Assembly (NCBI RefSeq): GCF_001280565.1
Contig: NZ_LGRO01000001.1
Span: 2,728,001-2,792,000 of the forward strand
DNA from: Sulfobacillus thermosulfidooxidans
Lineage (GTDB): Bacteria; Bacillota; Sulfobacillia; Sulfobacillales; Sulfobacillaceae
Direction of reading: 5' to 3'
Length of the DNA: 64,000 nucleotides
Below are positions 26,246 through 44,942 of the stretch, piece by piece. Position 1 is the stretch's first letter. Each line of letters begins with the position of its first letter. The translations under genes and the position numbers were made by a program. The notes beneath the pieces were generated by a model. That model saw nothing but the letters and a program-made list of their open reading frames with translations. It had not been told where the DNA came from and did no database searches.

Positions 26246-26279
26246 AAAAAAGCCGAGTCATCCTCTTATGGGACTCGGC
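26246..26279 (-). terminator. Terminator for the minus-strand microprotein operon
   Basis: On the minus strand GCCGAGTC and GACTCGGC (26272-26279 with 26252-26259) form an 8-bp stem with a 12-base loop, followed by six T (26251-26246). It lies just downstream of the 28-residue membrane microprotein. Confidence 0.75.
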
Positions 26280-26320
26280 CAAGATTCGGAGCCAGGGTAA
26301 CCGGGAAATCCAGCAGTGTT

Positions 26321-26407
26321 TTAAGGTTCTTCTTTGTGGTCAGCCATGAAGCGGATGCCAATGAGTAAAGAAATCACCATGGCAATCCCGCCTAATATCC
26401 ATAACAT
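26321..26407 (-). CDS. 28-residue single-helix membrane microprotein
   Basis: The ORF starts ATG at 26407 after GGGAGGGT and encodes a single hydrophobic helix (MLWILGGIAMVISLLIGIRF) with a short charged cytoplasmic-type tail ADHKEEP. A terminator follows at 26246-26279, and the RpiR-like regulator lies 111 bp upstream on the same strand, so both may be one transcript. Size and layout resemble small accessory subunits of transporters or oxidases, but no family is recognised. Confidence 0.6.
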   Translation of the reverse strand: MLWILGGIAMVISLLIGIRFMADHKEEP

Positions 26408-26518
26408 AATCGTACCCTCCCGATTAGATTGTTCTCATCATACCCAGTTTTTACGCAAAAATCAAAGCCAGTTGGAGGAAATCTTCCGGTCGCCCGTAAT
26501 GTGATGAGGGCATATTTT

Positions 26519-27412
26519 TTACGCATCGGTATCTTCTGCCGTCTCGGGAGGAGAAACGCGGTGAGGACGGACGGCTTCTAAGGTGTCAACGAGTTTGCTT
26601 TCGGCTTCTTCTGCTAAAGTATTGGCCAAAGCGAATAATAAAGCGCTCATGGCGGTTAAGGAAGCAATGAGGGAAGAACTGGCACCGATTCGGGGAGATG
26701 CCTCGTAGGCATAAACATAAATCGGTAAATCAGCCAGTCGTGACAGAGGATTTTTACGATCAAAACGGGTCAGTGCAGCAATAAAAGCTTGGCGTCTTCG
26801 GGCTAATTGAACAAGTTCTAGCACTTCAGACGTTTCTCCCGAATAGGATACAGCTAAAAATATGTCATCAGCAGTGAGTTGACCAACGATAGTGGCCATG
26901 ACATGAAAGTCTTCGGCAAAAAAAACTGGGAAACCGAGGCGCCATAATTTTTGCTGGAAATCTTTCACCACAATTGCTGAGGCTCCAATTCCATAAGAGA
27001 CGATCCACCGGGCTTTTTTAAGTCGTTGCACGATGGTGTCGATATCATTTTCACGCATGTCATTGAGAGTGCGATTAATGGCCATGATGGTGTTGCGTTT
27101 TAATGATTGGATGGAACGAGACAACGGCGTGGACGGATCAATTTCCATAAACCGGGATGTGGGAGGACGCTCTTCACGCGTTATGTCGGCAACCACTGCA
27201 ACTTTCAAACTTTGGTAACCCGAGACCTGAATGGATTTGCACAACCGGATAACGGCTGCTTGACTACTCCCCGTGATGCGGGCCAAATCCTTAACGGTAA
27301 GATCGACGAGTTGTTGAGGGTTTTCAAGAATCCAGCGAGCAATCCGTGCTTCAGAATTGGCCAGCGTGGGCAGTGTACTGCTGAGGCGGTCCAAAACGCC
27401 AGAAATAGCCAC
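26519..27412 (-). CDS. RpiR/MurR-family transcriptional regulator
   Basis: A 297-residue RpiR regulator: N-terminal helix-turn-helix domain (LANSEARIARWILENPQQLV, TVKDLARITGSSQAAVIRLC) and a C-terminal SIS phosphosugar-binding domain (VSYGIGASAIVVKDF, FLAVSYSGETSEVLELV). The Bacillus subtilis homologue MurR controls MurNAc catabolism and senses MurNAc-6-phosphate. Here it is divergent from a sugar ABC importer and peptidoglycan-salvage genes, so control of that cluster is a reasonable inference. GTG at 27412 has TAGGAGGA 9 bases upstream. A palindrome at 27499-27511 in the divergent region is a candidate operator. Confidence 0.88.
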   Translation of the reverse strand: MAISGVLDRLSSTLPTLANSEARIARWILENPQQLVDLTVKDLARITGSSQAAVIRLCKSIQVSGYQSLKVAVVADITREERPPTSRFMEIDPSTPLSRSIQSLKRNTIMAINRTLNDMRENDIDTIVQRLKKARWIVSYGIGASAIVVKDFQQKLWRLGFPVFFAEDFHVMATIVGQLTADDIFLAVSYSGETSEVLELVQLARRRQAFIAALTRFDRKNPLSRLADLPIYVYAYEASPRIGASSSLIASLTAMSALLFALANTLAEEAESKLVDTLEAVRPHRVSPPETAEDTDA

Positions 27413-27498
27413 TCAAGAATTCCTCCTACCTTGATCGGATAGCCTTGATAAACATGAAAATTTGTCAGCTGTGATGAATTATTTTTTCAGCATATTGG

Positions 27499-27511
27499 TT
27501 CAAATTTTGAA
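27499..27511. promoter_or_regulatory. Palindrome TTCAAATTTTGAA, candidate regulator operator
   Basis: A 13-base palindrome with 6-base arms in the divergent region, 87 bp from the RpiR/MurR-like start codon and 138 bp before the secreted-peptide ORF. RpiR-type regulators commonly bind AT-rich inverted repeats in such positions. Assignment is by position only. Confidence 0.4.
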
Positions 27512-27648
27512 ATATGATAACATAAAATTAGAAAAGCTTACAGATTATTCTTGATTGATTTACGCCGAAATAGATTTTTATGCTCCAGGTATTCTGAAAA
27601 TTATGGATAAATGCGTACCCACGAGAATTCTTAAGAGGAGCGAGACTG

Positions 27649-27783
27649 ATGAAAAAAGCCATCGGGCTAGTATTAGTGGCGAGTGTTGGTGTTATGGCAG
27701 CCGGTTTTGGCGCATCTCCAACTCAAAGTGCTGCTTCCGGTACGTTTACGACAATTGATGAAAGCCATGGCATTAGTTTCTAA
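27649..27783 (+). CDS. 44-residue secreted peptide
   Basis: The ORF starts ATG at 27649 after AAGAGGAGCGAG and encodes a textbook signal sequence (MKKAIGLVLVASVGVMAAGF) followed by a polar mature part of about 20 residues ending DESHGISF. No lipobox Cys is present. It is the first gene of the putative salvage operon, 86 bp before the MalF-like permease. It could be a secreted peptide or the stub of a binding protein cut by a nonsense mutation; no continuation is evident after the TAA. Confidence 0.55.
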   Translation: MKKAIGLVLVASVGVMAAGFGASPTQSAASGTFTTIDESHGISF

Positions 27784-27869
27784 GATTGGTTGGCAATAAA
27801 AGTCCAGGAAGCTCTTCAACCTGCAGACGCTAACTTCACGAAGTGTTCGGCTGAGAAGGAGGGAGATTA

Positions 27870-28778
27870 GTGCGTCAAAAGTATGTCGTGTTAAGTTTCA
27901 TTACTCCAGCATTTGTTGTGTATCTACTCTTCATAGTATATCCATTTTTGGAAAGTTTTCGGTATAGCTTATATAATTGGACTGGTGTTGGCGCTCTCAC
28001 ACATTTTCTTGGCCTCCGCAACTATGCTTATGTCTTACTGTCCAAGCAGTTTTCGGGATATTTTTGGCGGGCTGTCTTCCACAATCTATATTTCTTTGCG
28101 CTCTCAATGATTTTGACATTGGGAATTGGATTGGGCCTTGCTGTCGCATTAATGGCAATTTCTGAACGACGAGCTCGGTGGTTTCAGTCAATTTATTTTA
28201 TACCGCTTGTGATTCCGCCGGTGGTAGTGGCCTATTTGTGGGCCATTTACTTAGAGCCGAATTATGGGTTGATAGCTGACTTAGGGGCGATGCTCCACCT
28301 CCACCTTCTCCAACTACCATTTTTGGGATCAGAGTCTTTAGCTCTGCCGACCATTGCAGTAATTACGGCTTGGGCAGGAATGGGATTTCCTATTTTGGTT
28401 TTTTTAGCGGCGTTAATCGATATACCTAAAGATTTATATGATGCAGCAACTATTGACGGAGCAAACGCGTTTCATACTTTCTTTTCGGTTACTCTGCCTC
28501 TTATTCGACCAACCATTTATACCATTATGACACTAAACTTCATTGGCAGTTTCGGCACATTTGATCTTATTTACATTTTAGAAGGCACGCAAGCAGGACC
28601 AAATTATGCGACAGATGTACTTGGCACATTATTTTATCGTACCGCCTTCGGAGGATTTGGTACCACGGCACAAAATATGGGTTTAGCAGCAGCACTGGCT
28701 GTGGTGGGATTTGGGTTGGTTATGATAGCATCCACAGTATTTGTATATTTGCAAAAACACGCTGTTATCGAGTATTAA
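27870..28778 (+). CDS. Sugar ABC transporter permease, MalF/UgpA-like (CUT1)
   Basis: A 302-residue permease with six predicted helices and the CUT1 EAA-type loop DLYDAATIDGANAFHTFFSV(TLP). It pairs with the MalG-like permease and binding protein downstream to import an oligosaccharide or glycan fragment. GTG at 27870 follows GAGAAGGAGGGA. No ATPase gene is present in the cluster; CUT1 importers in Firmicutes often share one such as MsmX. Context (RpiR regulator, NamZ, NagZ, NagB) suggests cell-wall amino sugars as substrate, an inference. Confidence 0.88.
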   Translation: MRQKYVVLSFITPAFVVYLLFIVYPFLESFRYSLYNWTGVGALTHFLGLRNYAYVLLSKQFSGYFWRAVFHNLYFFALSMILTLGIGLGLAVALMAISERRARWFQSIYFIPLVIPPVVVAYLWAIYLEPNYGLIADLGAMLHLHLLQLPFLGSESLALPTIAVITAWAGMGFPILVFLAALIDIPKDLYDAATIDGANAFHTFFSVTLPLIRPTIYTIMTLNFIGSFGTFDLIYILEGTQAGPNYATDVLGTLFYRTAFGGFGTTAQNMGLAAALAVVGFGLVMIASTVFVYLQKHAVIEY

Positions 28779-28841
28779 GAGATTTTGTTAATACCGGATG
28801 CGAATAAATTAGGAAACTAAATTTCAAGGAGATGGTAAATT

Positions 28842-28967
28842 GTGAATCTGAGCGTAAAGCCGCAATTTGATGTAAGTCATTTTCGTCTGCGGGACTTCAG
28901 TAAATATTCGGGTCACTATGGAACCAAGGGTACGAGCAGATCATATTTTGCGAAGTGTGCAACATAG
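28842..28967 (+). CDS. Possible 41-residue ORF with a leader repeated downstream
   Basis: In the gap between the two permease genes an AAGGAG site precedes GTG at 28842, opening a 41-codon ORF (product begins VNLSVKPQFDVSHFRLRDFS). The first ~30 bases (28824-28857) recur before the binding-protein gene at 30056-30087, where the ORF is only 12 codons (30073-30111). Either these are small leader peptides or relics of a duplicated start region. No family is recognised. The rest of the gap up to 29180 shows no other gene. Confidence 0.35.
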   Translation: MNLSVKPQFDVSHFRLRDFSKYSGHYGTKGTSRSYFAKCAT

Positions 28968-29180
28968 CGTAATGATCAAAAGCATTTGATCCGTCTATTT
29001 GGACGGATGTGTTCCAAAGCTTGATGCACATACGCATTCACAATTGTCTTCGAGGATTGTGTGCACTTGCCCAAGCCATGATGAAAGGCGAAAAATCACA
29101 ATAGTGCGTCAGACATGCGATTTAATATTGGCCAACTACTGGAAACGTTGAACTTGCGCCTATTGAAAGAGAGGAACTTT

Positions 29181-29996
29181 GTGAATCGATCCATCGTTGT
29201 GTACGCTATTCTAATTTTATATGCCATTCTTGTTATTTTTCCTCTTGGAAACATGATTTTATTATCTTTCAAAAGCCTTGGTGGTATTGTAGGTCATCCA
29301 CTCAGGTGGCCTAGTCATTGGTATGTATCCAATTATGAAGAAGCATGGCAAGAAGGAAATTTGCTGGATTATCTACTAAACACTACATTTGTGGCCATGA
29401 TTTCGGTTACTGTGATTTCATTTCTGTCATCTATGGCAGCTTATGCGATTGCACGTTTTCATTTCCGCGGGAACCAATTCATCTATTTGATGTTTTTGGC
29501 TGGATTAGCGCTCCCTATTCAAATGATTGCCATACCATTATTTATTCTGATGCGACAATTGGATTTGCTTGACCATTTGGCTTCAGTTACCATCGTGTAT
29601 ATTGCTAGCGGACTATCTTTTAGTGTGTTTTTGTTAGTCAATTTTATTCGTAATATCCCGCGAGAATTGGAAGAGGCAGCTTTGGTGGATGGTGCCAGCT
29701 ATTGGCAAATCTATTGGCATGTTGTCTTGCCCCTCATTCGTCCCTCATTATCTACAGTAGCTATTTTAAATTTCATAGCGGCATGGAACAACTTTTTCTT
29801 TCCTCTCATCTTGTTAACCAACCCGTCACGCATGACGGTAGCTGTTGGTGTGATGTTTTTTGTGGGGCAGTATGCCACACAATGGAATTTGCTCCTTCCA
29901 GCCTTGGTTATCGTGACGTTGCCTACGATGTTGGCATTTATTGTTGTGTCACGACAGTTTATTCGAAACATAATGGGTGGAGCAATTAAGTTGTAA
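29181..29996 (+). CDS. Sugar ABC transporter permease, MalG/UgpE-like (CUT1)
   Basis: A ~271-residue permease with six helices and the CUT1 loop ELEEAALVDGASYWQIYWHV. It forms the membrane pore with the MalF-like permease. The frame opens at ATG 29115, which has no binding site. GTG at 29181 is preceded by GAGAGGAAC and begins just before the first helix (VNRSIVVYAILIL), as in most MalG proteins; I prefer it, but the 22-residue longer form is possible. Confidence 0.85.
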   Translation: MNRSIVVYAILILYAILVIFPLGNMILLSFKSLGGIVGHPLRWPSHWYVSNYEEAWQEGNLLDYLLNTTFVAMISVTVISFLSSMAAYAIARFHFRGNQFIYLMFLAGLALPIQMIAIPLFILMRQLDLLDHLASVTIVYIASGLSFSVFLLVNFIRNIPRELEEAALVDGASYWQIYWHVVLPLIRPSLSTVAILNFIAAWNNFFFPLILLTNPSRMTVAVGVMFFVGQYATQWNLLLPALVIVTLPTMLAFIVVSRQFIRNIMGGAIKL

Positions 29997-30055
29997 AAAA
30001 TCCCGTTAATTTCGTGCAAAAACAAATCTAGAAATTCAGATTGAATCAATCTCAA

Positions 30056-30111
30056 TCAAGGAGATGGGAATTGTGAATCTGAAAGCGAAAATGCAGTCTG
30101 TTTTCGATTAG
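30056..30111 (+). repeat. Second copy of leader repeat with 12-codon ORF
   Basis: TCAAGGAGATGG-AATTGTGAATCTG at 30056-30079 closely matches 28824-28851. Both copies have a strong AAGGAG site and a GTG start. Here the ORF ends after 12 codons (VNLKAKMQSVFD). It precedes the binding-protein gene by about 80 bp. Confidence 0.5.
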
Positions 30112-30189
30112 ACGATTTGGAAATAATTAGCTCACAGACCATGTGCCTGGTGAAAGAGTCATAAATTTTAATCGAGGAGGTAATTCAGT

Positions 30190-31518
30190 ATGAACGGAAT
30201 TAGAAAAGGGGTTATTGTTGCAAGTTCTCTCGGATTAATATCTGGATTAGCGGGTTGTGGATCATCTTTTGCCCAAGGTCCTACGACTGTAACAATTTGG
30301 TCATGGCGTTCTCAAGACGCCGGAATGTGGAAAAAAGTACAGAACGCGTTGAATAAAGAAGGAGCTAATATTCGGATCGAATTTCGTGCAATTAGTCCCA
30401 CGAGCTATGATTCTGTGCTTCAAACGGCAATGGATGGCGGCCAGGGCCCCGACATTTTCTACGGTCGGGCAGGGATAGGAACGATGGACTATGCTGCAGC
30501 GGGCATGATTAGACCGCTTAATAGGATTGTTAACTTTTCTGAAATAAATCCTGCTACGCTCGGGGCAGTTACCTACCGTGGACAATATTATGGGGTTCCT
30601 CTGGATGTAGAGACGATGGGAATATTTTATAACAAGGCCATGTTTAAGCGTTATGGGCTAGCTGTTCCACATACTTGGTCTCAATTAATTCATATTTGCA
30701 CAGTATTGAAGAGTCATGGTATCACACCAATTTATTCTATGGGTCTGCAAGGTTGGATGCTAGCACTGGATTTTGATGAAATTGGTGCAACAATGATGGG
30801 CAATCACTTTACACGAGAATTGGTGAATCGGCAAGCAACATTTCAGTCGGCTCCGTATGTAAATGCACTATCCCATTACCAAGCGCTATCGAAATATATG
30901 GAACCAAATTTCCAAGCAGTAGGATCTGCGGACAACGAACAGCAGGTGGCTCTGGCGACTGGTAAGGCTGGAATGATTTTTGACGGAATTTTTGATGTAC
31001 CAACTATACTCCAATATAATCCTCATTTGCAGTTAGGAATGTTTTTGGTTCCTCCTGTTAATAGCCATCAGCATCGACGCATTGACTGGTATGAAGATGC
31101 GGATTTAGCTATGAACAGTCATATTACTAGTTCGTCAGTCGTCAAGGCGTCTAAGATGATTTTGACCTATGCAGCTACACGGGCTTTTGGCCAGGATTTC
31201 TCCGACATTGCGGGGGAAATCTCAGCCGTAAAAGGCGTGCAAATTCCCCAAAAATATCCCTTGTCAGTTGAGGCTTATCACTGGTTTCAGTCCCGACCGA
31301 TTAACCCTATTTTCGACATTCGTAGTGCAATGGATACACCACCCGTGAATGCGGCAAGTGTTACATCAAAAACCTCTAAGAATCCCACCCTCGACAAAGG
31401 CATCTTTACTGCAGAATCAACGTACATGTTGCCGTTGCTAGAGCATAAGTTAACCCCCAAGCAAGCTGCCAAAAAAATTCAGCGGATGGTGTCTTGGTAT
31501 TTTGACCAGAAAAAATAG
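30190..31518 (+). CDS. Sugar ABC transporter substrate-binding lipoprotein (family 1)
   Basis: A 442-residue extracellular solute-binding protein of family 1. It has a signal peptide with lipobox SGLAGC, then VTIWSWRSQDAGMWKKVQNA and the MalE-like GPDIFYGRAGIGTMDYAAAG and GVPLDVETMGIFYNKAMFKR. It should deliver an oligosaccharide to the two upstream permeases. ATG at 30190 follows GAGGAGG. The upstream 190 bp carry the second copy of the repeated leader. Substrate is not determinable; amino-sugar fragments are suggested by neighbours. Confidence 0.88.
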   Translation: MNGIRKGVIVASSLGLISGLAGCGSSFAQGPTTVTIWSWRSQDAGMWKKVQNALNKEGANIRIEFRAISPTSYDSVLQTAMDGGQGPDIFYGRAGIGTMDYAAAGMIRPLNRIVNFSEINPATLGAVTYRGQYYGVPLDVETMGIFYNKAMFKRYGLAVPHTWSQLIHICTVLKSHGITPIYSMGLQGWMLALDFDEIGATMMGNHFTRELVNRQATFQSAPYVNALSHYQALSKYMEPNFQAVGSADNEQQVALATGKAGMIFDGIFDVPTILQYNPHLQLGMFLVPPVNSHQHRRIDWYEDADLAMNSHITSSSVVKASKMILTYAATRAFGQDFSDIAGEISAVKGVQIPQKYPLSVEAYHWFQSRPINPIFDIRSAMDTPPVNAASVTSKTSKNPTLDKGIFTAESTYMLPLLEHKLTPKQAAKKIQRMVSWYFDQKK

Positions 31519-31654
31519 ACGCTGAGACTACTGTGGTTGTATGAATTGGAGATTTTCTGTCAGAGTCCCAAATTATGCTGAAGGCGATAAAGTAGCGACA
31601 TGATTTCTGGTTTAGGTTTGATTATTCTTGTGTTTTGAGTATTTTTAGCGTTAA

Positions 31655-31846
31655 CCCATCTCCCTAACTACTGATGAGGATGTAGAGATTCAAGACAGCG
31701 TGTGTCTGTATGAACCGCGCTGTCCTTTTGCCCAGGATCAATGCCGGCAAACACGGCCCCGTTTGCAAGGGGATGGGCACGCTCATGCATGCCATTTTCC
31801 TACCATTCGGCGCGTCGTCCCAACATCGCTAACAGACAGGTCTTGA
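31655..31846 (+). pseudogene. C-terminal remnant of an oligopeptide ABC ATPase (OppD/OppF-type)
   Basis: A ~63-codon open stretch without a start ends at TGA 31844-31846 and encodes CLYEPRCPFAQDQCRQTRPR followed by QGDGHAHACHFP. This is the C-terminal oligopeptide-ABC cap motif (relatives: F-PRCP-A-D-C....P.L....GH..ACH), including the iron-sulfur-type cysteines. The ATPase domain is absent, and an in-frame TAA closes the frame upstream. It lies in the 418-bp gap before the serine hydrolase gene. It suggests that a peptide importer once stood here; muropeptide uptake would fit. Confidence 0.75.
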
Positions 31847-31937
31847 ATTTGGGAGAACTTTGGGACGCATAAAGCATAAGATCCCCTGGCGTGAGATCAA
31901 TAATCCATTTTGAGAGGACATTGACGACAATAAGGAG

Positions 31938-32984
31938 GTGAGCATTACGGAGAGATTTTATGAGGTCAAACACCTTCTCAATCACAGCATTGAACACCAA
32001 CAGGTTCCTGGTGTGGTGGCCTGGCTGGGGCGATATGACAACGTACTGTTTCGTTATCACTATGGCTATGCCCAGATTTATGGCGTAAAGCGAGAAATGA
32101 CGCCTGAGACCGTTTTTGATCTGGCGTCATTGACCAAAGTCGTAGCGACCTTACCCGCGGTTTTATTGCTCGTGCAAACCGGTCAATTGTCCTTAGAAGC
32201 ATTTTTATCTCGATATTTTTCCGCTTTTCAAGACGGCATGAAATCCAAAGTGCGCGTTATCCACTTGTTAACGCATACCGCCGGCTTGATCTCCCATAGG
32301 CCGTTTTACGAGGAAGCTCAGGGCTTTCAAGAAATTGTGAATCGGGTTGCGAGCGAGCCTTTGCGTTATGAACCTGGCACTCGCGTTGTTTACAGTGATT
32401 TAGGCTTTATGCTGTTAGGAGCTTTAGTCGAAAAGATCAGTGGACAGTCGTTATCAGATTTTTGTACCCAGCAAATCTTTGAACCTTTGGGAATGCACCA
32501 GACGCGCTTTCAGCCTGCTGGGGAAAAAATAGATTTTGCTGCGACGGAAGTGGTGGACAGCCACCCTTTGGTAGGAATTGTGCACGATGAAAATGCTCGG
32601 GCGATGGGAGGGATTGCGGGTCACGCGGGGTTATTTTCTACGGCTCAGGATTTAAGCCGATATCTTGCCATGTGGGTCGGTCGAGAAGGTCCTCTTAAGG
32701 AGATTGTCAAAGACCGTGCGCTGGATTCGTATACCACTGAACTTGGTGGGGTCCGGGGTTTAGGATGGGTTTTGCGGCGTGATAGCTACGATATTGCCGG
32801 AGATTTATGGCCGGAAACCACTGTAAGCCACAGTGGATTTACGGGAACATCTCTGGTTTTTGACAGGGCTTCGGGGTATTGGGCCATTTTATTGACCAAC
32901 CGAGTGCATTTTGGCAGGCAAACAGAGATTAATGATTTTCGCCGTCGTTTCCATAATGTTGCAGCAGCCTGCTTGTTCGGCTAA
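31938..32984 (+). CDS. Serine hydrolase of the class C beta-lactamase family (AmiE/YbbE-like)
   Basis: A 348-residue beta-lactamase-family protein with SxxK as SLTK (S64, K67), the Tyr motif YSD (Y152) and HSG in SHSGFTGTS. No signal peptide is seen. In Bacillus subtilis the same family member AmiE (YbbE), an N-acetylmuramoyl-L-alanine amidase, is encoded with NagZ and NamZ. The same neighbours occur here, so an amidase role in muropeptide breakdown is inferred, although AmiE is exported. The GTG at 31938 overlaps its own AAGGAGG, so initiation may instead use ATT at 31944. Confidence 0.75.
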   Translation: MSITERFYEVKHLLNHSIEHQQVPGVVAWLGRYDNVLFRYHYGYAQIYGVKREMTPETVFDLASLTKVVATLPAVLLLVQTGQLSLEAFLSRYFSAFQDGMKSKVRVIHLLTHTAGLISHRPFYEEAQGFQEIVNRVASEPLRYEPGTRVVYSDLGFMLLGALVEKISGQSLSDFCTQQIFEPLGMHQTRFQPAGEKIDFAATEVVDSHPLVGIVHDENARAMGGIAGHAGLFSTAQDLSRYLAMWVGREGPLKEIVKDRALDSYTTELGGVRGLGWVLRRDSYDIAGDLWPETTVSHSGFTGTSLVFDRASGYWAILLTNRVHFGRQTEINDFRRRFHNVAAACLFG

Positions 32985-33084
32985 ATCCACGCTAGAGAAT
33001 CCATTTAAACCGCGGTGGATTTTGGGTAATCTCACCTTTTGTCATTATGAATCATAATCCCAAATAGGAAAGAGATGAATAAAA

Positions 33085-34146
33085 ATGACTCGGCCAATTT
33101 CAGTTCAGCGAGCCCAACCGGGGATGGTAAAAATTTTGGGAGAGATGATTGATCGTGTGTACCGACCCGAGAAAACGCCAGGAGAAGGAATGCCCAAGGA
33201 ATTTCCGCATCTCTTTCATCCGGATAATGCGCACAATTTATTTTATGCCGAAATAAATTCTATCCCAGTGAGCATGGTTGCTGTATTGAAACAAACGGCG
33301 ATTATTCCCGGAGCCCATATTCCTGTGGCATCGATTGGCAGTGTTGTGACTTTGCCGGAATATCGTGGCCAAAAATTGGCTACGACGATTTTACAATCGG
33401 TTTTTGATGTCATGGAGCAAGAAGGCCAAGCCCTATGTTTGATTTCAGGTGACCGGGATTTGTACCTCAGACAAGGCGCAAGAAAAATCGGCCGGATGTA
33501 TACGGTCCATATCGATACTGCGGCCCTGGCCCGCGAATCTTCATCAGATGGTGCTGTGCGGATCATAGATGCCCATAGACGACAGCGTTATGCTCCCATT
33601 TTGGCGCACATCTACCAACAGGAAAATTACCGGTTTCAACGCCGTGTCGACCAGATGGCGATATTATTGGATGCCCTGTGGTTTAAGCGCCCGCATTTTC
33701 GTCAAGAACTGTTTGTGATCGAATCAGAATCTTCTATTGAGGGGTACCTTGTGGTGTTCGTCAGAGAATCCGAACCCCAGCATGGGGTGATTATGGAATG
33801 GGCTGGGAACCGTGAGCGAATGCCATGGGCTTTAGCGCAAGTCAAGAGGCAAATGGATCTCGAACATATCACCTTTCATATTCATGCGATGGATTATTGG
33901 ATGCAATCGGTAGCGATGGCGCAAAACTGGGTGATGCAGGAAGAACCCATTCAAGGCACCGTTAAAGTGGCCAATGCTGCGGTGTTAGTTCATGCATATG
34001 CCGCGTATCTTGAGGAACACGGTCAAGACATTATCAGTCTTCAGAATCTTTCCGGCGAGGCGCTTTTAAGCCGTTTATTTGGACCACCCTTTGAAGACAG
34101 CTTAAATCTTCCCTTTATTTTGACTGACGATCTGAATTATATCTAG
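33085..34146 (+). CDS. GNAT-family N-acetyltransferase (Eis-like layout)
   Basis: A 353-residue protein with an N-terminal GNAT domain. The acetyl-CoA site is seen as IGSVVTLPEYRGQKLATTIL (V-x-P-x-R-x2-x-G/K-x-A), followed by a second, more diverged half. The length matches two-domain GNAT proteins such as Eis-like acetyltransferases. It lies in the peptidoglycan-salvage region, so acetylation or re-acetylation of an amino sugar or peptide is possible but not shown. ATG at 33085 follows AGGAAAGAGATG. Confidence 0.75.
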   Translation: MTRPISVQRAQPGMVKILGEMIDRVYRPEKTPGEGMPKEFPHLFHPDNAHNLFYAEINSIPVSMVAVLKQTAIIPGAHIPVASIGSVVTLPEYRGQKLATTILQSVFDVMEQEGQALCLISGDRDLYLRQGARKIGRMYTVHIDTAALARESSSDGAVRIIDAHRRQRYAPILAHIYQQENYRFQRRVDQMAILLDALWFKRPHFRQELFVIESESSIEGYLVVFVRESEPQHGVIMEWAGNRERMPWALAQVKRQMDLEHITFHIHAMDYWMQSVAMAQNWVMQEEPIQGTVKVANAAVLVHAYAAYLEEHGQDIISLQNLSGEALLSRLFGPPFEDSLNLPFILTDDLNYI

Positions 34147-34237
34147 CCCTTGGTCCTTGATTGAATACGAAGACAAGAACGGAAAGACGGTCTATGTCAA
34201 TCCTGTGGATAACCAATATTTTTCCGTGTTGGGATGA
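34136..34237 (+). pseudogene. Unidentified C-terminal gene remnant beside the IS element
   Basis: After the GNAT stop a different frame stays open to TGA at 34235-34237 and reads WSLIEYEDKNGKTVYVNPVD then NQYFSVLG. The composition is protein-like, but there is no start codon or binding site. It may be the tail of a gene lost when the neighbouring IS110 element inserted or by earlier deletion. The family is not recognised. Confidence 0.3.
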
Positions 34238-34305
34238 TTTAGGCCATGGGATATGAAGCGGTGGCCGATTGGCGATCGCCGGGGCGCATGCGAATCCGTC
34301 CCGGG

Positions 34306-35511
34306 CTAGGAGGCATGCTGCGCGCGGTCGGCCAAAAATCGGGATTCATCATAGTGTTGGCCCGTCTTCCACATACGGAAGACAATGCGAAGCCAGACAT
34401 TGCCTAAGGCGCGCAAGGCGGCATGATGGCCATGACCCCGGGAGCGATATTGCTCGTAATACTGGCGAGCCCAGGGACAATGCGAGAGGGAGGAGAAGGC
34501 GAATTGATGGACCGTGGCGCGAAAATGCTTGTCACACGCACGCCGCATATGCACCCGTTTCAGCTTGCCGCTTTGGTAAAGCACCGGACTCGTGCCGGCC
34601 AAGGCTTGAGCCGCCTCTGCCCGCTCAAACCGGTCCCGATCGGGACCGAACCCGGCCAGGAGGCGAGCGCCCAAGGTCACGCCCACGCCGGGCACACTCG
34701 TCCAGAGGTCAGCATCCGGGTTCGCCAAAAAAAGCTTTTCGAGGTGCTTGCGCAAAGCCCGTTGCTCGGTCTGCAAGGCTTGCAACTGAGCCACCCATGC
34801 CCGCACCGCCCACATTTGGGCTCGGCGCTTGCCGGGAGAAGCCTCCAAGGCTCGCTGCTGCAATGCACTCCAGATGCGCGGCGCTTCTTGCGCGGCCCGC
34901 GCGTATCGGTGTTGCCGCAGCCAGGTGATCAGATCACTCAGCGCGATGTTGCGGGCCTCGACGGGATCGGGCCAAGCGGCCAAAAAGGCCAAGGCGACAG
35001 GACGATTGATCTCCGCGAAAGCGGCCAGCACCTGCGGGTAATAGCTCTTCAGCGCGGCCGTCAGTTGATTGCTCAAGCGCGTCATTTGCTGAGTCAAGTC
35101 CTCATCAATCCGCGTCAATTGACGCAGTTCGACCCAGTCTTCATCCGTAGGTCGCAGGGGCCGCAATTGATCCCGCTCATACCAGCCCAAGCGGGCCAAA
35201 ATCGCTGCATCCAAGCGATCGGTTTTCGCTCCCGACGGTTTGCGACGCGCATCAGAGACTTTCGGGTTGACAGGATACACCCAAAACCCTGTGGTACTCA
35301 ACCAATCGACCACCAGTCCTTGAGACGTCTCAATGACCACATGCACGTCCGTCCGGACGTGCTGGGCCCATGCCACCAACTGGGCTTCCAGGGCTTCCAA
35401 CGCGTCGCGTGTTTGATTCACCTGGCCGACCCACAGCGTATGTCCAGGCCGATCTTGGACCACCACATCATGATGGTCATCGGCCCAATCCCACCCGACG
35501 ACGATTTCCAT
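34306..35511 (-). CDS. IS110-family transposase (DEDD)
   Basis: A 401-residue transposase with the N-terminal RuvC-like DEDD domain (GWDWADDHHDVVVQDRPG, ETSQGLVVDWL, KTDRLDAAILARLG). The C-terminal IS110 domain reads VPGVGVTLGARLLAGFG and LAGTSPVLYQSGKLKRVHMR, the latter holding the conserved Ser. The full frame looks intact. ATG at 35511 follows AAGGAGG with 8-base spacing; the frame extends upstream to 35751 but without support. Base composition is clearly GC-richer than the host. These enzymes work with a bridge RNA from the non-coding end. Confidence 0.92.
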   Translation of the reverse strand: MEIVVGWDWADDHHDVVVQDRPGHTLWVGQVNQTRDALEALEAQLVAWAQHVRTDVHVVIETSQGLVVDWLSTTGFWVYPVNPKVSDARRKPSGAKTDRLDAAILARLGWYERDQLRPLRPTDEDWVELRQLTRIDEDLTQQMTRLSNQLTAALKSYYPQVLAAFAEINRPVALAFLAAWPDPVEARNIALSDLITWLRQHRYARAAQEAPRIWSALQQRALEASPGKRRAQMWAVRAWVAQLQALQTEQRALRKHLEKLFLANPDADLWTSVPGVGVTLGARLLAGFGPDRDRFERAEAAQALAGTSPVLYQSGKLKRVHMRRACDKHFRATVHQFAFSSLSHCPWARQYYEQYRSRGHGHHAALRALGNVWLRIVFRMWKTGQHYDESRFLADRAQHAS

Positions 35512-35700
35512 GTCTACCGCCTCCTTAATCAGATGCCCGCAGGACGCACTAGCCTTATTTATCACCAGATGTGGCAGGGACCCACCAATCAACCGGTCTA
35601 TGAGTGGTTCCTCGGGGGCAAAGTGTCCCGGAAAGGTGACTCTTTCTGTAGCGATCGCATCGCGAGGAGAATAGGCCTTTTCCGGAAAAGGTGACCATCT
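35512..35700 (-). ncRNA. Candidate IS110 bridge-RNA region (non-coding left end)
   Basis: About 190 bp between the transposase start and the element edge contain no gene. In characterised IS110 elements such as IS621 the equivalent region encodes the ~177-nt bridge RNA whose loops select donor and target DNA. Here a perfect 16-bp palindrome (35676-35691, centred on CCGG) and a short repeat GGAAAGGTGAC/GGAAAAGGTGAC give potential stems. The RNA itself is inferred from family and position. Confidence 0.4.
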
Positions 35701-35805
35701 ATTCCTTTTGATCATGGATGAAAGGTTCGACGAGATCCAGTGGCTCGTCACAAATCTTTGACAAAGTTATCCACCACTGAGACTAACAAATAAGGAGAAC
35801 GTGGC

Positions 35806-36771
35806 ATGTTCATTCGTTCTTATCGTCCCGGAGATGAAGTCCTTTTGGTTGATGTCTGGAATAGGACTTTACCGCAAGATGGTATAACCCTAGAGCGATT
35901 TACTCAAAAAGTCTTGCTTGATCCCAATTTTCGTCCGCAAGGGCTGTGGGTTGCAGAGCATGAAGGTGACCTTGTGGGTTGGATCTTAGCTGTGATTGAG
36001 TATCGGGACACCTCAACGAGTCAATCAGCTTCTGGAGCAGAGGAACAAGGATGGATCACCACCTTTGGGATCGCACCTGAATATCAAAAATTAGGGATTG
36101 CGCATCAATTATTAAAGCACGCCGAACAATATTTTTTGGCGCATCACCGCTACCAGGTGATTTTTTCGACCTATACCCCGCATTATTTCCTTCCTGGCCT
36201 GGATGCGAATCGGTATCCCCGGGCTTATGACTGGTTGTCGAAGCAAGGCTTTACAGTGCTCTATTCTCCAGTAGCCATGGACAAAAATCTTGTGGAATAT
36301 TCGGTGCCTAAAGACGTTCATCTCCAACAACAAGAATTAGAGCGACAAGGGTTTGTCATTGGACCCCTTAAATCCTCTCAGATTTGGCCCTTGTTATTGT
36401 TTTTACACCAAGAATTTGACCGAGACTGGGAAAGAGCGGTGAGGACGGCACTTTTAGGATCATTACCCTTATCGCAAATTTGGGTTATAGCCCGCGAAGA
36501 CCATATTGTGGGATTTGCCATGTATGGCGGATATGATGATATTTCCGAACGGTTTGGCCCGTTTGGCGTGGCGAAAGCCTTGCGAGGCAATCATCTTGGG
36601 AAAGTGTTGTTGTACCGTACTTTAGAAGCTATGCAGCGTCAAGGTCTACATTCCGCATGGTTTCTATGGACCGGAGAGGAAGAGCCAGCGGGACAGCTTT
36701 ATCTACAGGCCGGTTTTACTGTGACAAGACGTTTTCAGGTGATGGTGAAAACTCTCGTCCATGAACACTGA
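35806..36771 (+). CDS. Tandem-GNAT N-acetyltransferase
   Basis: A 321-residue protein with two GNAT domains. The first (residues ~1-160) has ITTFGIAPEYQKLGIAHQLL as acetyl-CoA loop; the second (~180-321) has FGPFGVAKALRGNHLGKVLL. It is cytoplasmic. It lies 38 bp upstream of the PIG-L deacetylase gene and is probably in the same operon with NamZ, NagZ and NagB. An N-acetyltransferase next to a de-N-acetylase is notable. The acceptor is unknown. ATG at 35806 follows AAGGAGAACG. Confidence 0.8.
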   Translation: MFIRSYRPGDEVLLVDVWNRTLPQDGITLERFTQKVLLDPNFRPQGLWVAEHEGDLVGWILAVIEYRDTSTSQSASGAEEQGWITTFGIAPEYQKLGIAHQLLKHAEQYFLAHHRYQVIFSTYTPHYFLPGLDANRYPRAYDWLSKQGFTVLYSPVAMDKNLVEYSVPKDVHLQQQELERQGFVIGPLKSSQIWPLLLFLHQEFDRDWERAVRTALLGSLPLSQIWVIAREDHIVGFAMYGGYDDISERFGPFGVAKALRGNHLGKVLLYRTLEAMQRQGLHSAWFLWTGEEEPAGQLYLQAGFTVTRRFQVMVKTLVHEH

Positions 36772-36809
36772 AAAACCTCGTAATTGATGCAGGGGAGGTT
36801 GAGATTATC

Positions 36810-37511
36810 ATGAGGATTTTAGCTGTTGGAGCCCATGCCGGCGATATGGATTTAACGGCGGGGGCTGTACTCGCACAGCATGTATTGAACCACGACGAAG
36901 TCACACTCGTCCATTTTAATCCAGGAGAAAAAGGACATCCTAGATTACATCCCCAGGAATATGCAAAGCAAAAAATTGAGGAAGCGACGTTATTTGCACA
37001 ACACATCGGTGCGCATGTCCGGTTTTTACCCTATCACGATGGTGAACTGACCGTGAATGCCGACACCATTTACGAAATGACCGACATTATTCGCGAAATT
37101 CGACCTGCAGTGGTGATTACTCATTGGAAAGAAAGTATTCATCCTGATCATGCCGCCGCACACCGCATCACGGAGCAAGCCTTATTTTATGCCAGTTTGA
37201 AATGGCATGAGCGAGCCTTACCTTCGCATTTTGTTCCCTATGTTTACTATGCAGACAATTGGGAAGATAGTGAGGGATTTGTCCCTGAAGTTTTTGTCGA
37301 AATTCATCCAGATGCCTATGAATTGTGGTTGCAAGCTATTTCACATTACGCTTTTGCCCGCGGCGAAATTACCCGCTTTCCCTATATCGCTTACTATCAA
37401 GCGTTAATGCAGGTCCGGGGTGCTCCCAAAGGCTTGGGTCGAGCCCAAGCTTTTATGGTTCCAGCCGGTGATTTACACCGCAAGGTACCATATTTAGGAC
37501 CGCAGGCATAA
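36810..37511 (+). CDS. PIG-L-family (LmbE-like) deacetylase
   Basis: A 233-residue LmbE-fold protein. The zinc motif usually written AHPDDE appears as AHAGDMD (H9, D12), the central helix follows EEATLFAQHIGAH, and the distal ligand is in IHPDHAAAHR. Members remove N-acetyl groups from GlcNAc-type sugars. The usual first Asp (the general base in MshB) is Gly here, as in an AH-GDM(E/D) subgroup, so activity is likely but mechanistically different. Next to NamZ/NagZ/NagB it may de-acetylate GlcNAc released from the wall. Confidence 0.8.
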   Translation: MRILAVGAHAGDMDLTAGAVLAQHVLNHDEVTLVHFNPGEKGHPRLHPQEYAKQKIEEATLFAQHIGAHVRFLPYHDGELTVNADTIYEMTDIIREIRPAVVITHWKESIHPDHAAAHRITEQALFYASLKWHERALPSHFVPYVYYADNWEDSEGFVPEVFVEIHPDAYELWLQAISHYAFARGEITRFPYIAYYQALMQVRGAPKGLGRAQAFMVPAGDLHRKVPYLGPQA

Positions 37512-37564
37512 TCACCACACATAATTGCAAAATTATACACAATTGTACAAAGGAAGGTATCATA

Positions 37565-38755
37565 ATGGTAAAACTGGGTATCGATCGTTTGATTAGCGAA
37601 TATCCGTCATGGGTGACAGGCAGCCGAAGTGGTGTGGTGACCAATTACGCGATGACCGATGGCCAGTTGAATCCGGTTATTGATCGCCTCATTCAAGTAT
37701 TTGGCTCCAATATTGTCAAATTGTTCGGCCCAGAGCATGGGATTCGCACAGCGAGTCCGGAAGGTGAGCATATTGACAGCGAGGTGGATGCGCATAGCGG
37801 ACTGCAGGCGTTTAGTCTTTATGGTTCAAACCGAAAACCAACGGCGGAGATGTTAGCCGATCTGGATTTACTGATTGTTGATCTACAAGATATTGGCACG
37901 CGGTATTTCACCCACGTGAGTACCTTAAAAGGTGTCTTAGAAGCCTGTGACGAGAATCACGTGCGCTGTTTGGTGCTAGACAGACCTAATCCCATTTCCG
38001 GATCTATGGAAGGACGGTTAACCGAACCCGGATATTACTCGTTTGTAGGAAGTCTCCCAATTCCCGTCCGTCATGGATTAACTTTAGGCGAAATCGCACG
38101 GTGGCTGCAACGCACACGTTATCCTCTTTTGGATTTAAATGTGGTGCCCGTTGGCAATTGGCAACGTCAGCAATTTTGGGATGAAACCTCATTGCCCTTT
38201 GTGCCTCCTTCGCCCAATACTACAGGCATCGATATGATGCTACTATATCCAGGAACTTGTTTGTTCGAAGGAACCAATGTCTCCGTTGGCCGGGGAACAA
38301 CTAAACCTTTTGAAATTATTGGCGCGCCTTATATCGACGGATTTACATTAGCCAAGCGCTTCAATCAGCAACAGTGGCCGGGAATCCACGCAAGACCCGT
38401 GTATTTTTTGCCGTGGCGGTCTCTTTATGCTAAGACTCTTTGTCAAGGGATCCAACTTCATGTGCTAGACCGCAAACTTCTAACTCCGTTCAGAATAGGT
38501 GTTTCCTTGGTGCAGTTAATTCATGACACCTATCCTGATCACTTTGCTTTTCTTAGACCAGCAGCTGATAACGATCCTCTTGATACTAACGATCATTATG
38601 CGAAATGTTGGTTCTTTGATTTGTTGGCGGGATCTGATGGATTGCGGCATGCGATTGAATCGGGTCATGGTCTTGAGTTCCTTGAGGATGAGGCGGGGCA
38701 ATTAGAACAATTTCGTGATGAAGTCTCCCAAGATTTGTTATATCCCCAAAAATAA
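37565..38755 (+). CDS. namZ: NamZ-like exo-beta-N-acetylmuramidase (DUF1343)
   Basis: A 396-residue DUF1343 protein. The N-terminus reads GIDRLI...RSGVVTNYAMTDGQLN and then LFGPEHGIR, followed by LDLLIVDLQDIGTRYFTHVS, LDRPNPISG and YPGTCLFEGTNVSVGRGT, the family landmarks. Bacillus subtilis NamZ (YbbC) removes terminal MurNAc from peptidoglycan oligosaccharides. That protein is secreted; no signal peptide is visible here, suggesting cytoplasmic action on imported fragments. ATG at 37565 follows AAAGGAAGGT. NagZ follows 21 bp later. Confidence 0.88.
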   Translation: MVKLGIDRLISEYPSWVTGSRSGVVTNYAMTDGQLNPVIDRLIQVFGSNIVKLFGPEHGIRTASPEGEHIDSEVDAHSGLQAFSLYGSNRKPTAEMLADLDLLIVDLQDIGTRYFTHVSTLKGVLEACDENHVRCLVLDRPNPISGSMEGRLTEPGYYSFVGSLPIPVRHGLTLGEIARWLQRTRYPLLDLNVVPVGNWQRQQFWDETSLPFVPPSPNTTGIDMMLLYPGTCLFEGTNVSVGRGTTKPFEIIGAPYIDGFTLAKRFNQQQWPGIHARPVYFLPWRSLYAKTLCQGIQLHVLDRKLLTPFRIGVSLVQLIHDTYPDHFAFLRPAADNDPLDTNDHYAKCWFFDLLAGSDGLRHAIESGHGLEFLEDEAGQLEQFRDEVSQDLLYPQK

Positions 38756-38776
38756 TTGCGAAAAATGTGAGGTGTC

Positions 38777-40381
38777 ATGATGTCTTACGATCTCAGGCGC
38801 TTAATTGGTCAATTGATGGTCTGTGGGTTTCCTAGTCCCTATGTCGATTCGCATGTGGAACAATTGATTCGTGAGTATCATGTGGGCAATGTGATCTTAT
38901 TTTCCCGGAATATCGAGTCGTTTGATTCAACGAGGCACCTAACTCAGCAATTGCAGCAATTAGCCCAGGATTCAGGACAAACTCAACCGCTTTTGATTTG
39001 TACTGATCAAGAAAATGGTATGGTTTCGCGGTTCAGTAAAGATGTCCCCGGATTTCCCGGCAATATGGCTTTGGGAGCAACAGGGGACGACAAATGGGCT
39101 TATTCGGTAGGACATATGACCGGAGCATTTCTGGCATTGGCGGGTATCAATATGAATTTAGCACCCGTTTTAGATGTCAATAATAACCCCTTAAATCCGG
39201 TAATTGGCGTGAGATCATTCGGTGACAATCCAAAGAGGGTGGCCGAAATGGGCGTGGCAATGATTCGCGGGTTACAAGAATCCAACGTGATTGCCTGCGG
39301 CAAACATTTTCCCGGACATGGTGATACTCATGTCGATTCTCACCGGGATTTGCCCCGGATTCCCCATCATCTCGGGCGCATGAAAAGGATTGAATTGCAC
39401 CCTTTTGAACAAGCCATTAATCAAGGACTTCCCGCCATTATGACGGCCCATATTGTTTTTGAGCAACTTGACGCAGATTATCCCGCCACCTTATCTCCTA
39501 AGGTTCTCCAAGGCTTGTTGCGTGAAACCTTAGGCTTTACTGGGGTGATTACCACCGATTGTCTTGAAATGCAGGCAATCTTAGGCACCGTCGGGGTAGG
39601 ACAAGGAGCGGTCATGGCCCTTTTGGCCGGGGCGGATATGATCATGGTTTCTCATCACTTTGACCTGCAAATCGAAGCCATGAATGCGATTTATGATGCG
39701 GTGGTTAAAGGCCAATTGCCGGTAGCCCGCCTCGAAGAAGCCTATGGGCGTATTCAACGCCTTAAAAATAGCTTACGTGCCCCGCTTAATGCGCTTGAAG
39801 ACCGTTTGCCCCTTTTGCGTGCCCAAGCCCTAGACTTGCAACAAGATGTGTCCCAGCATGCCTTGACCTGCCTGTATGATGGGATTGGTCTAAAAACAGA
39901 GCTTGGACCAACCCAAGATTTTCCCATTCCCCAAAAGGTCGCTGCCATCTTCGACACCGGAGCCTCTCCAATGATTGCCGCAGGACCAGAAACGGTGAAT
40001 GCCAGTGTCGTGCAAAACATTCAAGCCGGTCTTTTAGGTGTCGAGGTAAGGGGATTCTCAGTCAATGAGGCATTAGATAATGCGGAAGAGGTATTGCAAT
40101 ATGACTGGTTAATCTATCTATCGCGTACACTGAGTCCAATCCAGCAAGACATAAGCCCTTTATTGCAGTCCCATCCCTATTCCGTGGTATGGTTGCTGCG
40201 CACGCCTTATCTCTTTCCCTTGTTCAAAGAGATGGGAGCCAAGCGAATTTATGCATTGTATGAAAATACTCCATGGATGATTCACGCAGCTCTTGGGGCC
40301 CTTCTCGGCCAGAAAACATGGGGTTCATTGCCCGTAGAGGTCAAACACTATCCCAGGGGTTACCAAGGATGCGCATCATAA
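38777..40381 (+). CDS. nagZ: Beta-N-acetylglucosaminidase, GH3 (NagZ)
   Basis: A 534-residue GH3 enzyme with the NagZ catalytic loop KHFPGHGDTHVDSH (H185/D183 acid-base dyad), the nucleophile Asp in ITTDCLEM (about D261) and TDQENG near residue 77. A C-terminal domain (~340-534) is present as in Bacillus subtilis NagZ. It removes non-reducing GlcNAc from wall fragments, leaving MurNAc for NamZ or downstream enzymes. No signal peptide is seen. The NagB gene follows closely. Confidence 0.92.
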   Translation: MMSYDLRRLIGQLMVCGFPSPYVDSHVEQLIREYHVGNVILFSRNIESFDSTRHLTQQLQQLAQDSGQTQPLLICTDQENGMVSRFSKDVPGFPGNMALGATGDDKWAYSVGHMTGAFLALAGINMNLAPVLDVNNNPLNPVIGVRSFGDNPKRVAEMGVAMIRGLQESNVIACGKHFPGHGDTHVDSHRDLPRIPHHLGRMKRIELHPFEQAINQGLPAIMTAHIVFEQLDADYPATLSPKVLQGLLRETLGFTGVITTDCLEMQAILGTVGVGQGAVMALLAGADMIMVSHHFDLQIEAMNAIYDAVVKGQLPVARLEEAYGRIQRLKNSLRAPLNALEDRLPLLRAQALDLQQDVSQHALTCLYDGIGLKTELGPTQDFPIPQKVAAIFDTGASPMIAAGPETVNASVVQNIQAGLLGVEVRGFSVNEALDNAEEVLQYDWLIYLSRTLSPIQQDISPLLQSHPYSVVWLLRTPYLFPLFKEMGAKRIYALYENTPWMIHAALGALLGQKTWGSLPVEVKHYPRGYQGCAS

Positions 40382-40403
40382 AGCTCCAAGGATGGTGAGA
40401 GTT

Positions 40404-41174
40404 ATGCACGTGGAAGTCTATAATGATCGGAAAACAGCGAGTCGGCGCATTGTGGATTTAGTGGCACGTCAATTATCGGCTTATCCGTATTCGGTTTTAG
40501 GACTTGCCACGGGTGCGACGGTCATTCCGATCTATGAGGAAATGATACAGCGGATTAATCACGCACATCTTGATCTGAGCCGCGTCCATACATTCAATTT
40601 GGACGAGTATATGGGGTTAAAAGATCCTAATCGCCATTCGTTTCACGCTTTTATGCGACACTATTTGTTTGATCCGGCGCATTTGAGTCCCGATCAAACC
40701 TTCTTTCCTTTTCCCCAATTTTCACAAGACCCACCGGGATATGATCGTCTGATCGAACAACATGGAGGTATAGATTGGCAACTTCTGGGCATTGGCCACA
40801 ATGGCCACATTGGCTTTAACGAACCAGGCACCTCTTTTGATAGTGAGACGCATGTTGTGAAGTTGACGGAGAATACCCGCAAAGCAAACCGGAACTGGTT
40901 TGATGGGGATTGGCGTCATGTTCCCGAAGAGGCTCTAACCATGGGGCTCAAGACCATTATGCGCTCACGTACCATTGTGTTGGCGGCATTTGGCGCGAGC
41001 AAAAGCGCGATTTTAGCCAAGGCAGTTCATGGGCCCGTGTGTGTTGAGGTGCCGGCATCAATCTTACAATATCATCCACGCGTTTACATCATTTGTGATC
41101 AGGAGGCCGGGAACTTGTTACGCCCTGGCCCGTCCTTAAATTCCTCTAAACTTTCCCGGCAATTTGACGTTTAA
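40404..41174 (+). CDS. nagB: Glucosamine-6-phosphate deaminase
   Basis: A 256-residue NagB: LGLATGATVIPIYEEM (phosphate loop), FNLDEYMGL (catalytic Asp) and GIGHNGHIGFNEPG (active-site His/Glu) are all present. It converts glucosamine-6-phosphate to fructose-6-phosphate and ammonia, the exit of amino-sugar salvage to glycolysis. No NagA deacetylase is in the window; the PIG-L protein may take its place upstream. Two in-frame ATGs exist; the second (40404) has GGTGAGAG at better spacing and gives the usual N-terminus. Confidence 0.92.
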   Translation: MHVEVYNDRKTASRRIVDLVARQLSAYPYSVLGLATGATVIPIYEEMIQRINHAHLDLSRVHTFNLDEYMGLKDPNRHSFHAFMRHYLFDPAHLSPDQTFFPFPQFSQDPPGYDRLIEQHGGIDWQLLGIGHNGHIGFNEPGTSFDSETHVVKLTENTRKANRNWFDGDWRHVPEEALTMGLKTIMRSRTIVLAAFGASKSAILAKAVHGPVCVEVPASILQYHPRVYIICDQEAGNLLRPGPSLNSSKLSRQFDV

Positions 41175-44809: not shown

Positions 44810-44942
44810 GGATGACCTCCTCAAAATCCGGAACAGATGATACCAAACCCAAAGCCCGATCCGTAATCAATTGAGATGGGAAACATCTAAAACATTATTA
44901 TATATAAGATTTAGAAAGATTTCCCATGGTGTTTCTTTCCCC

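Follow-up and report, generated by a model that had tools for sequence, protein, structure and literature searches.

How can a bacterium take up and use the amino sugars of bacterial cell walls when its salvage cluster encodes neither MurP, the importer of the phosphotransferase system (PTS), nor MurQ? The question is raised by a cluster in Sulfobacillus thermosulfidooxidans, located within a stretch of 64,000 nucleotides (the window; G000:C1:2728001-2792000, with window coordinates used below unless a contig or locus is named) of a genome of 3.83 Mb in three contigs. An initial annotation had recognized there a group formed by an RpiR/MurR-like regulator, an AmiE-like hydrolase, NamZ, NagZ and NagB, accompanied by an ATPase-less CUT1-type ATP-binding cassette (ABC) importer and two GNAT proteins, all of which the open reading frames and Pfam families bear out. 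Its further proposal, that the importer, the GNATs and a PIG-L deacetylase take the place of MurP and MurQ, does not stand. As argued below, the cluster most probably serves to take up peptidoglycan fragments and degrade them in the cytosol, within one pathway whose genes are scattered and in which a CUT1 importer has replaced an Opp importer (a reading to which a probability of about 75% is given). Thus, the earlier observation is partly confirmed and its interpretation partly supported. Gene content, the scattered loci and the swap with its stubs can be read from the sequence itself; substrates and enzyme activities are assigned throughout at the level of protein families, and the pairing with an ATPase and the regulation are likewise inferred.

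An importer exchanged under an inherited regulator

The regulator is encoded on the minus strand and the operon (27870-41174) on the plus strand. The features at the upstream end of the operon are the following:

26519-27412, minus strand: RpiR/MurR-family regulator (HTH_6 and SIS), divergent from the operon (Pfam HTH_6 4.5e-18, SIS 1.1e-16)
27474-27527, plus strand: control region, presumed promoter/operator, 5' of the former oppA (conserved island)
27649-27783, plus strand: oppA stub, the first 43-44 codons of a lost Opp solute-binding protein (tblastn, E 2e-10)
27870-28778, plus strand: CUT1 permease 1 (BPD_transp_1 7.7e-18; 76% identity to G020, 71% to G014)
29115-29996, plus strand: CUT1 permease 2 (BPD_transp_1 4.3e-22; 72-75% identity to G020 and G014)
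30190-31518, plus strand: CUT1 solute-binding lipoprotein (SBP_bac_1 1.5e-26)
31658-31828, plus strand: oppF stub, 57 residues near the C-terminal end of a lost Opp ATPase (E 5e-28)
31938-32984, plus strand: AmiE-like hydrolase of the beta-lactamase fold (Pfam Beta-lactamase 4e-60; SxxK at residue 64)

Elsewhere in the genus, six of seven genomes encode an Opp-type importer (SBP_bac_5, OppC_N and oligo_HPY domains) with amiE directly downstream, and their OppB orthologues are 88-100% identical to the protein of G018, the closest relative of the window locus (comparison genomes are coded G0xx). In G018 this ABC importer fills the slot between murR and amiE, and murR lies on the far side of the opp genes in G013, G015, G016 and G018, where the sequence extends that far. 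At a threshold of E 1e-60, the window's genome gave no match to OppB. The seventh genome, G014, which is 61% complete, has CUT1 genes, and no Opp was found in it.

Two blocks of the window are colinear with the DNA of G018. The first, 26246-27775, comprises the regulator, the control region and the beginning of oppA; in the second, which extends from 31671 past 33200, the end of oppF is followed by amiE. Between these blocks, about 5.5 kb of opp genes correspond to 3.9 kb that hold the CUT1 genes. On the left, the stub matches OppA residues 1-43 at 63% identity, with Phe in place of the lipobox Cys and a stop codon shortly behind, and the right stub matches OppF residues 274-330 of 335 at 81% identity. 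No match of this kind was obtained in 20 shuffles at a threshold of 1e-4. Both stubs have accumulated substitutions in their decay, which makes a misassembly unlikely. Both remnants lie within the range covered by the initial annotation, which had missed them, as it had an IS110 transposase further downstream.

With their counterparts in the salvage clusters of G020 and G014, the CUT1 proteins share 68-76% identity, and the solute-binding protein has close family relatives only in these two genomes (76% and 68%, respectively), in both cases beside NamZ. MurR, AmiE, NamZ, NagZ, NagB, MurQ, the kinase and NagA, in contrast, are just 36-55% identical to their G020 and G014 counterparts and, where compared, 81-96% identical to those of G018. 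The CUT1 block has a GC content of 0.42, against 0.47-0.48 for its neighbours; likewise, that of G020 has 0.46 against 0.56 for its locus. This discord of identities, the AT-rich block and the two stubs are together read as a horizontal replacement, in which a CUT1 cassette took over from the Opp importer under the inherited regulator and left both ends of the old genes behind.

The regulator itself is 96% identical to its counterpart at the same position in G018 and 85-86% identical to that in G013. An island conserved in G000, G013, G016 and G018 between the regulator gene and oppA is the best-conserved part of that spacer and is intact in the window. From its position and conservation, we infer that the RpiR-type regulator acts on the operon through this region.

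The rest of the proposed route elsewhere in the genome

The statement that MurP and MurQ are absent holds for the cluster, in which open reading frames and family searches reveal no ATPase gene, murQ or murP. MurP is truly missing, since a genome-wide domain search found no PTS EIIC domain; MurQ is not. The genome search proposed with the initial annotation recovered a canonical murQ, a gene resembling MurNAc/GlcNAc kinases (for N-acetylmuramic acid and N-acetylglucosamine) and an MsmX-type ATPase. The canonical murQ (G000:C1:1526753-1527580; 361 bits against a cut-off of 302) carries DAAE and AEDD motifs. The nagA gene (C1:904378; 271 bits against a cut-off of 225.65) directly follows a gene for a BadF-family kinase, whose best solved relative is the MurNAc/GlcNAc kinase 8zo3 (2.7e-24). 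Two ways of forming MurNAc-6-phosphate are known, the MurP PTS and phosphorylation by a cytosolic kinase; with the first lacking here, this protein is a candidate for the second. Exactly one UgpC/MsmX-type ATPase exceeds the cut-off genome-wide, and its gene adjoins murQ in convergent orientation, an arrangement kept in G018 (93% identity for MurQ and 99% for the ATPase). With an SBP_bac_1 protein, two permeases, no ATPase of its own and one elsewhere, the CUT1 importer fits the layout of systems sharing an MsmX-type ATPase, and its proteins would pair with this single one. With these genes in place, the salvage route is complete on paper, at three loci, and the puzzle of how MurNAc is used without MurQ disappears.

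In line with this, murQ is present in nearly all complete relatives having NamZ. In other genera of the family (G020, G021, G025-G027), murR-murQ lies inside the NamZ cluster, in some cases with a kinase gene; G020 combines kinase-murR-murQ-amiE-CUT1-namZ-namZ-nagZ in a single array, with nagA-nagB further on. Given that clusters containing murQ also carry GNAT and PIG-L genes, the latter are no substitute for MurP or MurQ, and what the CUT1 importer stands in for in this genus is, judging from the locus comparison, the Opp-type importer and not MurP.

The genome also holds a second salvage cluster (G000:C1, about 229-241 kb; L006:1286-13840), of which a close copy occurs on contig C2 of G018 (L098). 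It encodes a CUT1-type solute-binding protein and permeases, a glycoside hydrolase family 3 (GH3) protein, a phosphodiesterase-family protein, a fused MurQ, a ROK regulator and a GlmA-like tandem GNAT, as well as MupG, of the 6-phospho-N-acetylmuramidase family, in a genome devoid of PTS EIIC. In the fusion (C1:238824; L006:9679-11703), the second MurQ domain of the genome follows an N-terminal domain of about 355 amino acids that matches no Pfam family and shows no similarity to NagZ, of which it had been considered a decayed copy; long frames resembling this fusion (about 618-752 amino acids) are also found in G003, G004, G015, G018 and G030-G033. About 68 kb upstream of the window (L018:7465-9818), a second BadF-family kinase is encoded beside the gene of a GH4-like glycosidase.

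Downstream enzymes and a possible additional step

Beyond amiE, the operon continues as follows:

33085-34146, plus strand: GNAT1, acetyltransferase of the Acetyltransf_9 type (Pfam 2.7e-10)
34306-35751: IS110-type transposase between GNAT1 and GNAT2
35806-36771, plus strand: GNAT2, tandem GNAT, candidate GlmA-like glucosamine/glucosaminide N-acetyltransferase (profile match)
36810-37511, plus strand: PIG-L-fold protein with AHAGDM replacing AHPDDE (Pfam PIG-L 1.2e-23)
37565-38755, plus strand: NamZ, predicted exo-beta-N-acetylmuramidase (NamZ_N 1.5e-69, NamZ_C 6e-46)
38777-40381, plus strand: NagZ, predicted GH3 N-acetylglucosaminidase (Glyco_hydro_3 1e-84; KHFPGHG and D-x-H motifs)
40392-41174, plus strand: NagB, predicted glucosamine-6-phosphate deaminase (NCBIfam nagB models 1.2e-71 and 1e-63)

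NagZ lies barely above the PRK05337 cut-off (207.3 bits against 207), and NagB lies below the curated NCBIfam cut-offs (TIGR00502: 215 against 236.9 bits). GNAT1 is kept within the genus and is less conserved elsewhere. The IS110 insertion interrupts the operon; in G018, GNAT1 and GNAT2 are separated by 70 bp without a transposase. As judged by a crude hydropathy of N-termini, the solute-binding protein begins with a strongly hydrophobic segment, whereas NamZ, NagZ and the AmiE-like protein do not, in agreement with the earlier view that these enzymes lack signal peptides; their proposed action on wall amino sugars inside the cell is likewise supported as an interpretation. Just downstream, at 42914-44824, lies a gene for a GH18-family protein with a probable signal peptide, found at the same place in G018, which could act as an extracellular supplier of fragments. 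The spacer between the two permease genes (28779-29114) measures 336 bp, against about 12 bp in G020, and contains a short reading frame; part of the sequence at 30056-30088 recurs in it.

GNAT2 matches 5kga/5kf1 over positions 11-288 of 316, covering both tandem domains (9.5e-20), and the acetyltransferase half of RmNag, 4zm6 (1.5e-12). The entry 5kga, labelled 'Predicted acetyltransferase' in the database, is presumably GlmA of Clostridium acetobutylicum, which we take to be a tandem GNAT. The GNAT region of RmNag acetylates glucosamine (GlcN) and chitosan oligomers, which enables the GH3 half to cut (GlcN)2. According to the same paper (PMC4680927), peptidoglycan fragments with non-N-acetylated ends are recovered by bacterial glucosamine N-acetyltransferases before a glucosaminidase cleaves them. 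Its likeness to RmNag and GlmA thus makes GNAT2 a plausible helper of NagZ.

Its neighbour is less easily placed. The initial annotation named the right fold in calling it a PIG-L deacetylase, but the catalytic Asp is missing: in the subfamily, the metal ligands H9, D12 and H114 are invariant, whereas all 24 members examined have Gly, Ala or Val where the general-base Asp would stand. This Asp is the general base in MshB and BshB-type enzymes, and the other two PIG-L genes of the genome keep it (APHPDD); the label 'deacetylase' is therefore unsafe. GalB, a hydratase of the PIG-L fold, also lacks the residue (AHSADF), and a structure model of the window protein (predicted local distance difference test, pLDDT, of 90) has BshB1, GalB and diacetylchitobiose deacetylase as near folds, with template-modelling scores of 0.85 to GalB and 0.79-0.80 to BshB1.

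The two genes travel together. In an even draw of 299 genomes across the phylum, eight match the PIG-L protein strongly (at 1e-97 or below, with 1e-46 for the next match) and all eight are among the ten carriers of GNAT2 (hypergeometric 3e-14, with relatedness ignored); eight of the nine PIG-L copies lie 21-184 bp from GNAT2. NamZ, GNAT2 and PIG-L also co-occur in Hydrogenibacillus, Candidatus Carbobacillus and metagenome-assembled genomes of Clostridia and Ruania, and in Paenibacillus cymbidii, Paenibacillus sp. MSJ-34 and Paenactinomyces the genes for GNAT2 and PIG-L flank CUT1 genes. The presence of ABC importers in several such clusters makes this a recurring design, not one peculiar to the window's genome. 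Tentatively, and with appreciably less confidence than the overall assignment of the cluster, GNAT2 and the base-less PIG-L protein may together carry out a step, hitherto undescribed, in the salvage of wall fragments by Bacillota; the latter would either strip an unusual N-acyl group, to be followed by acetylation by GNAT2 (N-acyl editing), or, instead of deacetylating anything, act as a lyase or hydratase in the manner of GalB. No paper dealing with MurNAc uptake by a CUT1 importer, or with this PIG-L protein, was found in the open-access literature.

Proposed pathway and alternatives

Under the favoured interpretation, the CUT1 solute-binding protein and two permeases, powered by the sole UgpC/MsmX-type ATPase, would bring in MurNAc/GlcNAc sugars or small fragments of the wall. 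Once these are in the cytosol, glucosamine ends would be re-acetylated by GNAT2, the AmiE-like enzyme would strip peptides, and NamZ and NagZ would release MurNAc and GlcNAc, respectively, from the fragment ends. A MurK/NagK-like kinase would convert both sugars to their 6-phosphates, after which MurQ would turn MurNAc-6-phosphate into GlcNAc-6-phosphate, NagA would yield GlcN-6-phosphate, and NagB fructose-6-phosphate, with the operon controlled by the RpiR-type regulator through the conserved upstream region. The ancestral importer would have been an Opp-type peptide or muropeptide ABC system, later replaced by a CUT1 cassette related to those of other NamZ clusters, with the oppA 5' end and the oppF 3' end as remains of the older system.

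Several points weigh against this proposal. The nearest solved relatives of the solute-binding protein bind xylo-, malto- or chito-oligosaccharides, so that the family leaves the ligand unfixed, and assigning it from the nearest structures was abandoned because these are too mixed. The pathway as drawn does not account for the PIG-L step. A search around murQ, nagA and the second cluster did not recover the control region (the best sites had 16-18 mismatches of 38), so the idea of a shared control region was dropped and no shared regulon is claimed; as murQ, the kinase gene and nagA are without it, their co-regulation with the operon is unproven. Lastly, the incompleteness of G014 makes its missing Opp weak evidence.

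That the operon mainly serves the use of chitin or GlcNAc oligosaccharides, with chito-oligosaccharides bound by the CUT1 protein and NamZ and the AmiE-like enzyme as side activities, is unlikely. It draws on the matches of the solute-binding protein to chitin-oligosaccharide binders, among others (NgcE 3.6e-9; 7ehp, 7eho), on the nearby GH18 gene and on the chitosan-acetylating relative of GNAT2 (PMC4680927). Yet NamZ, the most MurNAc-specific enzyme present, is the conserved anchor of the cluster, and relatives hold murQ and MurK-like kinases within it. The view that the PIG-L gene encodes BshB, of bacillithiol synthesis, and is located here by chance is very unlikely: BshB1 is among the best NCBIfam and fold matches, but the close linkage to GNAT2 described above speaks against it, and it was rejected on a score of 81.1 bits against the BshB1 model, where 182.5 are needed, and on the loss of the general base, no search for bshA or bshC having been made. 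A MurQ-avoiding route for MurNAc, with GNAT and PIG-L in its place, as initially suggested from the lack of murQ in the cluster, is very unlikely; it was rejected in view of the murQ found in this genome and in nearly all complete relatives with NamZ, and of the murQ-containing clusters that also carry GNAT2 and PIG-L.

Relation to known systems and implications

The B. subtilis cluster is organized as murQ-murR-murP-amiE-nagZ-namZ(ybbC) (PMC5061867). The window resembles it in grouping a MurR-type regulator with AmiE, NagZ and NamZ and differs in that its genome lacks MurP and PTS EIIC and has murQ at another locus, in that signal peptides are not evident in its enzymes, while degradation in B. 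subtilis is extracellular, and in the addition of an ABC importer, NagB, two GNATs and PIG-L, although B. subtilis presumably also has a GNAT gene near its cluster. C. acetobutylicum cleaves muropeptides inside the cell (PMC4974736). With its rescue by NagZ, MurK and GlmA, the genome of the window would share intracellular cleavage, a MurNAc/GlcNAc kinase and a glucosamine/glucosaminide N-acetyltransferase; it differs in the addition of NamZ and PIG-L and in having its candidate kinase at another locus. For the ancestral Opp of the locus, the proposed import of wall fragments by a peptide-type ABC system has a parallel in Agrobacterium YejBEF-YepA, an importer of muropeptides (PMC9790009), which differs in being alphaproteobacterial, in having its solute-binding protein gene at a separate locus and in not having been replaced by a sugar importer. 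Likewise, RmNag of Rhizomucor miehei (4zm6) couples a GH3 N-acetylglucosaminidase to a glucosamine-acetylating tandem GNAT (PMC4680927), but as one fused fungal protein acting on chitin, whereas the window has separate genes in a wall-salvage operon.

The coupling of GNAT2 and PIG-L across Bacillota points to an additional salvage step, which to our knowledge is absent from every pathway map. At the window locus, an importer swap appears to have been caught with both scars still legible, a sugar-type cassette occupying a peptide-type slot behind the same regulator. Such a swap suggests that the two importers carry overlapping cargo, and it makes the cargo of both testable.

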